In this document: positions 61,620 to 64,000 of the stretch, piece by piece
How the letters are laid out: every line of letters starts with the position of its first letter
Position numbering within the stretch: the stretch's first letter is position 1
NCBI GenBank assembly: GCA_022548915.1
Contig: JAKZES010000020.1
Span: 1 to 64,000, forward strand
Direction: 5' to 3'
Length of the DNA stretch: 64,000 nucleotides
DNA from: Verrucomicrobiaceae bacterium E54
GTDB lineage: Bacteria; Verrucomicrobiota; Verrucomicrobiia; Verrucomicrobiales; Akkermansiaceae
Translations under genes and position numbers: made by a program
The notes under the pieces: generated by a model
Seen by the model: the letters and a program-made list of their open reading frames with translations, nothing else
Databases searched by the model: none
What the model was told of the DNA's origin: nothing

Positions 61620-62357
61620 ATGCCGAGCGAGACGATCCAGAACCTGCGCCAGCAGCTGCGCGAGAAATTCCCCGCCGCCCATCGCGAGGGGAGCGCCGGC
61701 GTCCCGCCGGCTCCATTCGGCGTCCCGCCGAATGCCTCCACCCACCCCGACGCGAAGCGTCGCACTCCTCTTGGCACTTGGAACTTCGAACCTGGCACTT
61801 CGAACTTCCCGATCGGCGCCATCACCGAGATCTCCCCGGCCCACCCCGCCTGCGGTCTCACCCTCCTCTTCGCCGCCCTCCTCTCCGAAGCACCGAATCC
61901 CGGAAACACCGACCTGTCCGCCGTCGCTTCAGCGAAGGCGGAAACACCGGCACTCGTTCTCATCGACGCCCGCGACCGCTTCGATCCCGCCTCGTTTTCC
62001 CCCGAAGAGTGCCGGCGCCTCCTCTGGCTGCGCTGCCGCGAGACCCGCCAGGCCCTGCAATCCGCCGACCTGCTCCTGCGCGACGGCAACCTGCCCTTCA
62101 TTCTCCTCGACCTCTCCCCGCTCCCCGCACGCGAACTGCGCCGCATCCCCGGGTCCGCATGGCACCGCCTGCGCCAGCTGGCGGAACCCAGCCAGTGCAC
62201 CCTGCTCGTGCTGACTCCCACCCCGCTCGTTCCGGGTGCGGCGCTGCGCCTGACCCTCACCCGAGAATTCGATCTCCGGCATCTCGACCTCTCGCGCACC
62301 GACCTCCTCCGCAACCTGCACGCCGAAGCCCGCCACCGCCACCGCCACACCGCCTGA
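61620..62357 (+). CDS. imuA: ImuA-like (RecA-fold) protein of the mutasome pair
   Basis: A 245-aa protein whose N- and C-parts match ImuA/SulA-like RecA-fold proteins encoded before imuB: MPSETIQNLRQQLREKFPAA, then IGAITEISPAHPACGLTLLFAALL, LVLIDARDRFDPASF, LLWLRCRETRQALQSADLLL and SRTDLLRN. The Walker A motif is absent. Residues about 24-64 come from repeats (GVPPAPFGVPPN, then DAKRRTPLGTWNFEP), so the native protein is shorter. The start follows tatD by 36 nt. It likely works with ImuB and a DnaE2 polymerase in SOS translesion synthesis. Confidence 0.78.
   Translation: MPSETIQNLRQQLREKFPAAHREGSAGVPPAPFGVPPNASTHPDAKRRTPLGTWNFEPGTSNFPIGAITEISPAHPACGLTLLFAALLSEAPNPGNTDLSAVASAKAETPALVLIDARDRFDPASFSPEECRRLLWLRCRETRQALQSADLLLRDGNLPFILLDLSPLPARELRRIPGSAWHRLRQLAEPSQCTLLVLTPTPLVPGAALRLTLTREFDLRHLDLSRTDLLRNLHAEARHRHRHTA
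61695..61809. repeat. Repeat cluster inside imuA
   Basis: Two hairpins with the same GTCCC loop (GCCGGC arms at 61695-61711; ATTCGGC/GCCGAAT arms at 61715-61733). Then comes GACGCGAAGCGTC (61749-61761), a 9-nt spacer, and five 7-nt units of the ACTT type (61773-61807). The composite from 61749 recurs at 63699 inside imuB. Confidence 0.8.
61917..61942. repeat. Hairpin inside imuA encoding VASAKAE
   Basis: TCCGCC (61917-61922) and TCGCT (61924-61928) pair with AGCGA (61931-61935) and GGCGGA (61937-61942) with one mismatch. It lies between two conserved ImuA segments, like an insertion in a loop. Confidence 0.55.
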
Positions 62358-62360
62358 ACC

Positions 62361-62470
62361 GGAAGTTCCAAGTGAGAAGTTCCAAGTGCCAATGCCAGTT
62401 TCCGGAGCGCGGACATTCCTGTCCGTCCGTCTCTCCCTTGGAACTTGGCCCTTCCCCACTTGGAACTTCG
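62361..62470. repeat. Repeat cluster between imuA and imuB
   Basis: A heptamer array in inverted orientation (AAGTTCC/AAGTGCC type, 62361-62391), a TTCCGGAGC + GGACATTCCTGTCC palindrome (62400-62425), and a forward ACTT-type heptamer array (about 62438-62470) that runs into the first conserved codon of imuB. Confidence 0.75.
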
Positions 62471-64000
62471 TACCTCGCCCTCCACATCCCCGCCCTACCC
62501 CTTGAGGCCCTTCTCCGGCACCAGCCGGAAAAGCGCCGTCATCCCCATGCCCTGCTTTCTCCATCCGCCCATTCCTCCACCGTCATCCACGCCAACCGCG
62601 CCGCCCGTCGCCGCGCCGTCCACGACGGGCTTTCCCACACCCGGGCCCTCGCCCGCTGTCCGGAACTGAAATTTCTCGAGCGCGCCCCCGAAGCGGAAAC
62701 CGCCGTCCTCCACGACCTCCTCCAATGCGCCGAGTCCCTCACCCCCGACTTTGAACTCACCACTCCCGACACGCTCATCCTCGCTGGCTTGCGGATCAAA
62801 CAGGAGATCCCATCTGAAATCCGAAATCTGAAATCCGAAATCGAACCCCTCGGACTCCCTCTCCACCTCGCCGCCGCCGCGACGCCCGACCTCGCCCACC
62901 TCTTCTCCCTTCATCCCGCCACCAGCCATTCGCTCATCTACCGCGGTGCCGACTATCGGTGGAAAAAACCGACCCACCTCCACGACTCACTCACCGCCCT
63001 CCCACTCCAAATTCTCCATCACTTGGAACTTGGAACTTTTCACTTGGAACTTCCATCCCAGTGGGGCCTGCAGACCCTCGCGGACCTCGCCCGACTCCCT
63101 CGTCAGGATCTCGCCGAGCGTCTCGGTCCGGATTTCGTCCGTCTCCACGATATTCTCCACGGCCGGCACCAGCGTCTTCTCAGGATCTTCCGCCCGGCCG
63201 AATCCATCGAGGCGCACACCGATCTCGAACACCCGCTGAGTCACGGCGACGGCCTGGTTCTGTGGCTGCGGCGAACCCTCCACACCCTGTGCTCCCGGCT
63301 GGCCTCCAGCTATCGCGCCGCTGCGGAAATCCATCTCACCCTTGATCTCGAGGACCAGCCCCCGCATCGCCACACCCACCGGCTGCCGGAGCCTTCGGCC
63401 TCGCCCGAAACCCTGCTCCGTCCTCTCGCCACCCATCTGGAGCACCTCACGCTGACCGCCCCCGTCACCGGCTTTCATCTCCGGCTGACTCCCTGCGCCG
63501 GCCACGCCGGACAACACGAGCTTTTCGACCGCGGGATCCGCCAGCCCCACCGGCTCGCCGACACCCTCATCCGCCTGGCCGCCCTGCTGGGTGACGACCG
63601 CCTCGGCTTCCCCTCCCCCGGCTTCACCCACCGCCCCGACACCTTTGCCCTTCACCCCGCCCATCACCTCTTCGATCAAACCAGTCTTCCATCCCCTCGA
63701 CGCGAAGCGGCGCACTCCCTTTGGCACTTGGAACTTCGAACTTCGAACTTCGGCCCACCCCTCTCCCGCTTCCGCCCTCCCATCGAGGTCTCCGTGGCCT
63801 TCGAAAACGCCAGCGGGCACCCCGTCCCCCTGGCGCTTCTGACCGGGCCCCACCGCGGTCGCGTCACCCATCGCCACGGTCCCTTCCCCCTCTCCGGCCA
63901 GTGGTGGGATCCCGGGGAAAAGTGGCAGCAAGTCGAATGGGACATCCGCCTCGAAACCCGCCATCTCCTGCGCCTCGCCCACATCCCCCCCGACCTCTGG
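62438..64000 (+). CDS. imuB: ImuB-like Y-family polymerase homologue (partial, runs off the edge)
   Basis: At least 521 codons, no stop before the window end. The conserved start YLALHIPALPLEALLRHQ has no ATG before it; the nearest in-frame starts are TTG 62438, inside the repeat, and GTG 62372. TVIHANRAARRRAVHDGLSH and LLQCAESLTPDFELTTPD are Y-family-like, but the catalytic acidic residues are missing, as expected for the inactive ImuB adaptor. The little-finger part includes RLGPDFVRLHDILHGRH. Three repeat insertions are read in frame (62812, 63020, 63699). A dnaE2 gene may follow outside. Confidence 0.82.
   Translation, partial: MELGPSPLGTSYLALHIPALPLEALLRHQPEKRRHPHALLSPSAHSSTVIHANRAARRRAVHDGLSHTRALARCPELKFLERAPEAETAVLHDLLQCAESLTPDFELTTPDTLILAGLRIKQEIPSEIRNLKSEIEPLGLPLHLAAAATPDLAHLFSLHPATSHSLIYRGADYRWKKPTHLHDSLTALPLQILHHLELGTFHLELPSQWGLQTLADLARLPRQDLAERLGPDFVRLHDILHGRHQRLLRIFRPAESIEAHTDLEHPLSHGDGLVLWLRRTLHTLCSRLASSYRAAAEIHLTLDLEDQPPHRHTHRLPEPSASPETLLRPLATHLEHLTLTAPVTGFHLRLTPCAGHAGQHELFDRGIRQPHRLADTLIRLAALLGDDRLGFPSPGFTHRPDTFALHPAHHLFDQTSLPSPRREAAHSLWHLELRTSNFGPPLSRFRPPIEVSVAFENASGHPVPLALLTGPHRGRVTHRHGPFPLSGQWWDPGEKWQQVEWDIRLETRHLLRLAHIPPDLW
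62812..62843. repeat. Heptamer array (CYGAAAT type) inside imuB
   Basis: Four 7-nt units alternate CTGAAAT and CCGAAAT. They are translated as SEIRNLKSEIE in the loop before LPLHLAAAATPDLAHL. Confidence 0.75.
63020..63054. repeat. Heptamer array (ACTT type) inside imuB
   Basis: Units GGAACTT, GGAACTT, TTCACTT and GGAACTT are translated as HHLELGTFHLELP just before the conserved WGLQTLADLARLP. Confidence 0.75.
63699..63752. repeat. Composite palindrome + heptamer element inside imuB
   Basis: GACGCGAAGCGGC (63699-63711), spacer GCACTCCCT, then ACTT-type heptamers to about 63750. The same composite is in imuA at 61749, but it is read here one base earlier (RREAAHSLWHLELR). Confidence 0.8.

Follow-up and report, generated by a model that had tools for sequence, protein, structure and literature searches.

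Stacks of REP-like palindromes and heptamer repeats in frame in imuA, imuB and dnaE2 of Verrucomicrobiaceae bacterium E54

The window analyzed here is a stretch of 64,000 nucleotides (nt) from Verrucomicrobiaceae bacterium E54 (contig JAKZES010000020.1, positions 1 to 64,000 of the forward strand), which is part of contig C122 in a 5.9-Mb draft genome; the contig runs on to 79.5 kb. At the right end of the window begins an operon of three genes that we take to be imuA, imuB and dnaE2, names that go beyond what the domain and structure matches give. ImuA has no Pfam or NCBIfam match, and its AlphaFold model matches RecA structures with a best E of 4e-9; ImuB is matched by NCBIfam Pol IV models below their cut-offs, and DnaE2 scores above the NCBIfam cut-off for the error-prone DNA polymerase (PRK05672). 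All three genes are open, and each bears within its coding sequence a copy of a composite repeat, which is built of short palindromes resembling repetitive extragenic palindromic (REP) sequences and of tandem 7-nt units (heptamers). The features of the composite and its host genes inside the window are as follows.

61620..62357, + strand: imuA, 245 amino acids, RecA-like fold, bears the first copy (open reading frame, structure match, relatives)
61690..61711, + strand: REP-like palindrome A in imuA, GGAGC followed by GCCGGCG-TCC-CGCCGGC; the dnaE2 copy has two changes
61714..61734, + strand: palindrome B in imuA, CATTCGGCG-TCC-CGCCGAATG; unchanged in the dnaE2 copy
61748..61762, + strand: palindrome C in imuA, CGACGC-GAA-GCGTCG, the motif of the original prediction
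61763..61810, + strand: spacer remainder CACTCCTC and degenerate heptamer array (ACTTGGA/ACTTCGA-like) in imuA
62438..64000, + strand: imuB, Y-family polymerase-like, continuing to 64024 past the window (Pfam IMS E 3e-7, relatives)
63698..63712, + strand: palindrome C' in imuB, CGACGC-GAA-GCGGCG, with one stem mismatch
63713..63753, + strand: spacer remainder CACTCCCT and heptamer array in imuB

The original prediction had described the composite at 61749 in imuA (GACGCGAAGCGTC+GCACTCCTC+TTGGCACTTGG) and at 63699 in imuB (GACGCGAAGCGGC+GCACTCCCT+TTGGCACTTGG), read in two frames one base apart, and the sequence confirms both copies and both frames. The repeat is, however, shared by three genes and not by two, because a third copy lies in dnaE2 at about 64405-64520, just beyond the window. 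From 5' to 3', the imuA stack consists of GGAGC with GCCGGCGTCCCGCCGGC, then CATTCGGCGTCCCGCCGAATG, CGACGCGAAGCGTCG, a CACTCC spacer and degenerate heptamers; the dnaE2 copy is the same stack, and the imuB copy comprises the third palindrome and the heptamers only. The two upstream palindromes (61690-61734) are common to imuA and dnaE2 and have no counterpart in imuB. When 7 kb of the operon was compared with itself, imuA and dnaE2 matched over 116 bp at 89.7% identity (E 4e-40), imuA and imuB over 66 bp at 86.4% (E 1e-15), and dnaE2 and imuB over 63 bp at 82.5% (E 2e-12), a similarity between genes that is far beyond chance. In a whole-genome pattern count the core GCGAAGCGNCGCACTCC has two exact places, which are the imuA and imuB copies; with up to two mismatches it has 13, and heptamers follow three of them, in imuA, in imuB and, at C122:64469, inside dnaE2. 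No copy of the composite itself was found outside the operon by this search, so the genome holds three, all of them inside coding sequence. A single composite element spread over the genome was rejected on that count, and the kinds of parts that make up the composite are also present elsewhere in the genome. Rather than one mobile unit, the composite is REP-like palindromes stacked in front of a heptamer array.

The palindrome part is read in phase 0 in imuA, giving DAKRRTPLG, and in phase 1 in imuB, giving RREAAHSLW, and dnaE2 shares the frame of imuB (RREATHSPW). The proposal that DNA was copied, and not protein, stands, as the 116 bp common to imuA and dnaE2 are read in different frames at 90% identity. 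The accompanying statement that the peptides are unrelated applies to the palindrome part alone, the only part that reads differently between genes. A heptamer array cycles through the three frames every 21 nt and encodes the identical cyclic heptapeptide in any of them (TWNLELG from ACTTGGA, TSNFELR from ACTTCGA), so that this part yields related peptides from gene to gene. Stop codons are absent from all six frames of all three copies (18 of 18); for the 121-nt imuA copy, the same property was found in 14 of 5000 shuffles and in 78 of 5000 random 121-mers of the genome. In-frame insertion is probably tolerated, as had been suggested, but the further idea that it is selected is unneeded, since tolerance and a stop-free sequence suffice.

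Alignments with 13 ImuA, 14 ImuB and 20 DnaE2 relatives from the genus, family and order place the inserts in non-conserved linkers: between LREKFP.AH and FP.GAISE in ImuA, between the HRPD.F segment and PL.RFRPP in ImuB, and after LCQHLT in DnaE2. The imuA peptide occurs in 0 of the 13 and the imuB peptide in 0 of the 14 relatives, and the whole DnaE2 insert in none of the 20. We discarded native sequence as an account of the imuA and imuB sites since the peptides are missing from all aligned relatives, and the insertion originally predicted withstands this comparison. Short palindromes are possible in GC-rich coding DNA, and the palindrome-coded RREATHS does recur in the same DnaE2 linker of the relative G001 (RREATHE is found in another linker of G002), which might point to native conserved linker sequence or chance similarity; against E values of 4e-40 and 1e-15 between genes, we give that explanation hardly any credence. 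In the predicted models, the confidence score pLDDT (predicted local distance difference test) falls below 50 at residues 38-60 of ImuA and 410-440 of ImuB, and these two inserts probably sit in disordered linkers. A further palindromic stretch, TCCGCCGTCGCTTCAGCGAAGGCGGA, is seen in imuA at 61917-61942, near a second low-confidence segment (residues 95-106).

Ranked by DnaE2 identity, the closest genomes of the same genus are G001, G002 and G015. They form one clade with the DnaE2 of the window (FastTree support 1.000), and their operons carry repeats of their own in linkers and gaps: CACTCGT, CATCCAC and AATCGGC in G001, ACATCGA/ACGTTCG in G002, and, in G015, AATCCCC/AAATCCG at the imuA-imuB junction and ATTGGAA-like units in a dnaE2 linker. 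By eye, palindromes followed by a heptamer-like run occupy the first dnaE2 linker in all four species, with differing units and partly altered or decayed stems; among the relatives, only the run of G001 passes the array threshold given below. The imuA linkers of G002 and G015 lack such a stack and that of G001 has other palindromes, again by eye. Because stacks stand in the dnaE2 linkers of the relatives and none like it in their imuA linkers, we judge the dnaE2 copy to be older and the imuA copy to be derived.

One kind of palindrome is dispersed through the genome. GGAGCGCCGRTTNTGAAAYCGGC has 23 exact copies in the present genome (G000), 27 in G002, 51 in G014 and 1 in G001; the search covered 145 genomes of the family, and the remaining 141 gave none, nor did the control. 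With up to two mismatches it has 38 places in the own genome, 41 in G002 and 55 in G014, and none for the reversed control. It starts with GGAG, its stems covary (GTT/AAC and ATT/AAT), and it often lies in opposed pairs. G000, G002 and G014 each have one listed copy in dnaE2, that is, 3 of the 134 places at up to two mismatches, where about 0.14 would be expected; the dnaE2 of the present operon holds two copies of the dispersed palindrome, at 65555 (its start altered to GGAC) and at 67189. Dispersal, covarying stems and opposed pairs would suit a single-strand transposase like those termed REP-associated tyrosine transposases (RAYTs), moving a miniature element independently into the three genes, and the genome has 17 Y1_Tnp matches (L076-L092), several of them (e.g. 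L080, L082, L085, L088) flanked on both sides by palindromes, which are specific to each locus. A GGAG palindrome of the GGAGCGCCGRTTNTGAAAYCGGC type, however, is found at 0 of the 17 loci within about 1.5 kb on each side where the contig allows, for which reason mobilization by a linked RAYT gene was rejected, and a scan of these loci for heptamer pairs and GGCGnnnCGCC gave one GGCGGCCCGCC only. In addition, the composite is found nowhere outside the operon, and the three-palindrome stack common to imuA and dnaE2 is more simply explained by one copying event. Independent transposition is, in our estimate, unlikely, though not negligible.

REPs are defined by a 5' tetranucleotide GT(A/G)G in one source (PMC3686654), from which, together with another (PMC8266576), we took the features of TnpA-REP systems. 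The adjacent palindrome with a variable stem is present here, both as the covarying stems of the dispersed copies and as perfect stems of 6-9 bp within the operon. The tetranucleotide is not: the dispersed palindrome starts with GGAG, and the other strand reads GGAGTGC (imuA, imuB) or GGAGAATGC (dnaE2) before palindrome C. Many dispersed copies exist of GGAGCGCCGRTTNTGAAAYCGGC, not of palindrome C or the composite, and none of the 17 Y1_Tnp loci is flanked by the palindrome. Given the GGAG start in place of GTAG and the transposase loci without it, we do not file GGAGCGCCGRTTNTGAAAYCGGC as a RAYT-type REP, though it looks similarly built. Di Nocera et al. 2013 (PMC3733652) describe REP/GTAG palindromes in frame inside genes, many of them for replication and repair and DnaE2 included, and give O. 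terrae, a Verrucomicrobium, as having the most intragenic GTAG repeats. The likeness to the present case lies in short in-frame palindromes in repair genes, DnaE2 among them; the differences are that here the palindromes start with GGAG, are absent from transposase loci and abut heptamer arrays, and that one stack is common to all three genes of one operon. The term "imub" was not found in that paper, and no search for imuA was made there. As cited in the same paper (PMC3733652), Rickettsia palindromic elements are likewise in-frame palindromic inserts in unrelated proteins. Insertion into unrelated open reading frames that stay open is what we observe too, the imuA and imuB inserts being absent in relatives. 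The elements differ from ours in sequence and host, and we know of no heptamer array in them.

Heptamers are not confined to the composite. Once stretches of low complexity had been taken out, we called an array wherever at least 17 of 21 positions matched at a lag of 7 nt. In the own operon (61.6-67.7 kb), four heptamer families appear as called arrays, all in coding sequence: AAATCYG and ACTTSGM in imuB, ACTCGGC and ACYGATC in dnaE2. The further repeats within the window are listed here.

62360..62475, no strand assigned: imuA-imuB gap and start of imuB, with reverse heptamers, palindrome GGACATTCCTGTCC and forward heptamers
62811..62845, + strand: second heptamer family, AAATCYG, in frame in imuB
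63020..63055, + strand: more ACTTGGA heptamers, in frame in imuB

In the first of these regions (62358-62475), inverted heptamer arrays surround the palindrome, and the likely TTG start of imuB at 62438 falls within a heptamer of the right arm. The region is predicted to form a long RNA hairpin of -51.4 kcal/mol (z -4.8), which none of 200 shuffles equalled.

At the 17/21 threshold, arrays appear at lags 7 and 14 only, both in the own operon and in the operons of G001, G002 and G015. The three relatives together have 9 arrays in 16.9 kb of operon versus 15 in 903.6 kb of sampled genome, a ratio of 32 (p 2e-10, a value that is too good since the repeats in their linkers had been seen before the background was sampled). 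By genome, the counts are 2 in 5.7 kb versus 6 in 400 kb for G002, 6 in 4.8 kb versus 8 in 277 kb for G001, and 1 in 6.4 kb versus 1 in 227 kb for G015, the last not significant alone (p 0.054); in the background of G001, lag 9 (17 arrays) is commoner than lag 7 (8). The own genome has 4 in 6.1 kb of operon versus 9 in 520.5 kb (p 1e-5), where the operon had been picked because repeats were seen there and 12 of the 40 sampled stretches were dropped as N throughout. Over the four operons, 11 of 13 arrays lie within gene frames, one of them at the extreme 5' end of imuB in G015, versus 3 of 24 background arrays that a rough coding score places clearly within genes; these three read as a glycosyltransferase, an RmlB-like enzyme and a member of the U32 peptidase family. 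All 20 relative loci, six of which consist of dnaE2 only, hold 11 arrays in about 95 kb, about 7 times the rate of 15 in 904 kb. Arrays lie inside genes in four of the loci (G001, G002, G014, G015) and in a gap only in G008; the remaining 15 have none, and the hot spot is therefore not universal.

Beyond these relatives, 80 named loci from several phyla, of which at least three (L223, L233, L237) are genomes also among the relatives, have 19 arrays in 437 kb of operon segment (taken as dnaE2 plus the 2.7 kb ahead of it, with or without imuAB) versus 12 in 855 kb of flanks (p 0.0016); 10 of the 19 come from two loci (L264, L297), and three of the 12, all from L297, may really lie in the L297 dnaE2 frame. 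Counted by locus, arrays occur in the operon segment of 10 of 80 and in the twice-longer flanks of 8 of 80. In the operon segment, lag 7 gives 19 arrays and lags 5, 6 and 8-13 give 0 to 3 each. Open imuB or dnaE2 frames contain arrays in L235 (a metagenome-assembled Prosthecobacter), L238 (Verrucomicrobiia), L263 and L297 (Acidobacteria) and L264 (labelled Acidimicrobiia), though the dnaE2 of L297 is spread over two overlapping frames and may be broken. L264 and L297, likewise metagenome-assembled genomes, each show several heptamer arrays in imuB/dnaE2.

The excess in the nearest relatives and in the multi-phylum set might mean that the operon is targeted through its function, with slippage repeats being gained by the DNA that the mutasome makes or repairs near its own genes, which are induced and transcribed. 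Genomes whose sole match is replicative-DnaE-like nonetheless have arrays: ten of them gave 3 in 327 kb, two on one G042 contig, versus 24 in 1,424 kb, which is not significantly fewer (p 0.46) in what is a weak comparison, and the idea that heptamer arrays need DnaE2 was dropped. Two species also have repeats in a U32 peptidase gene (the second by eye), and 15 of the 20 relative loci have no operon array; such targeting appears very unlikely to us. In the whole genome, the ACTTNGN family has 39 matches (reversed control 1) that collapse to 21 arrays, 3 of them in the operon; 18 of the 21 were examined with their surrounding DNA, and 6 are in genes, including those 3. Elsewhere in the genome arrays lie mostly outside genes by the rough coding score. 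In-frame arrays do occur inside the genes for a U32 peptidase, PriA and valyl-tRNA synthetase (L165, L168, L181), which fits tolerance rather than a mutasome-specific role. At L007-L011 of the own genome, arrays stand directly before the apparent starts of a number of genes, some with a small hairpin after them, oriented with the gene (by eye).

Such placement is known. In MacGregor 2015 (PMC4679880), TAACTGA heptamers lie mostly directly before start codons, and heptanucleotides are reviewed as the commonest class in most genomes, with polymerase slippage proposed. Both systems have tandem 7-nt units, here head to tail, dispersed genome-wide, some in open reading frames and some before start codons. 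By comparison, ours has several units per genome, degenerate in-gene arrays and a species-specific unit in the same linkers; in place of one conserved, mostly intergenic unit, four in-gene families occupy the operon.

Another palindrome, CGTCGCRMAGCGACRC, bears on regulation. It has 16 places in 8 of 57 genomes (reversed control: 6 matches over the 57), and in G000, G001, G002 and G015 it has 6 places, every one within this operon and not always at the same position, two just upstream of dnaE2 and four inside it. These places and the strong predicted RNA hairpins could indicate that the palindromes are an operator or RNA structure under selection. The sites differ between species, however, with 4 of 6 inside dnaE2, the stems drift, as in the imuA and imuB variants, and the operons of other genus members have no CGTCGCRMAGCGACRC match, and we consider a regulatory signal improbable. 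Elsewhere in the genus, CGTCGCRMAGCGACRC is found only in G006 and G013, singly, on other contigs and without repeats (by eye). Hairpins of at least 6 bp flank 7 of 37 arrays versus 148 of 3600 random places, an association that is suggestive only. In G039, from another family of the order, lie 7 of the 16 CGTCGCRMAGCGACRC places, six of them in a different palindrome cluster; this genome has a dispersed palindrome cluster beginning CGTCGCGAAGCGACGC (L329, L333, L334, L336-L338).

Taken together, we favor, with a fair measure of reserve, the explanation that the composite is passenger repeat DNA, present in frame where ImuA, ImuB and DnaE2 have flexible linkers; a function in the cell need not be assumed for it. 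The dnaE2 copy would be the oldest; local copying, by gene conversion or a template switch between repeats, would have carried its stack into imuA and a shorter piece into imuB; and replication slippage would make the heptamer arrays grow, shrink and change their unit. What lets the inserts survive may be their lack of stops, a length that fits and their position in loose linkers. Several points weigh against this explanation. The confinement of CGTCGCRMAGCGACRC to the operon in four species is more orderly than plain passenger DNA predicts, and the operon excess is not obviously explained by tolerance alone. The direction from dnaE2 to imuA was judged by eye from the linkers of relatives. The genomes searched include no near-identical strain and gave none in which a site is precisely empty, which leaves the edges of the insertions and any duplicated target out of sight.

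In-frame REPs in repair genes and heptamer arrays are already published, and what looks new is a hot spot at one operon with turnover of the unit; among the matches listed, open-licence papers held no report of it. Repeat DNA has entered coding genes repeatedly at this operon, with the genes still open and the 7-nt unit specific to the species in the same linkers. The operon thus seems to be a place where repeat DNA gathers. As a decidedly speculative possibility, it might be a general, cross-phylum landing and expansion site for heptamer arrays and palindromes, at which error-prone synthesis induced by damage adds repeats to the genes that encode it; if that were true, the mutagenesis machinery would diversify its own linkers. 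In either case, these operons offer a natural series for how heptamer arrays arise, and for asking whether the repeats of repair genes reflect tolerance or the mode of copying.

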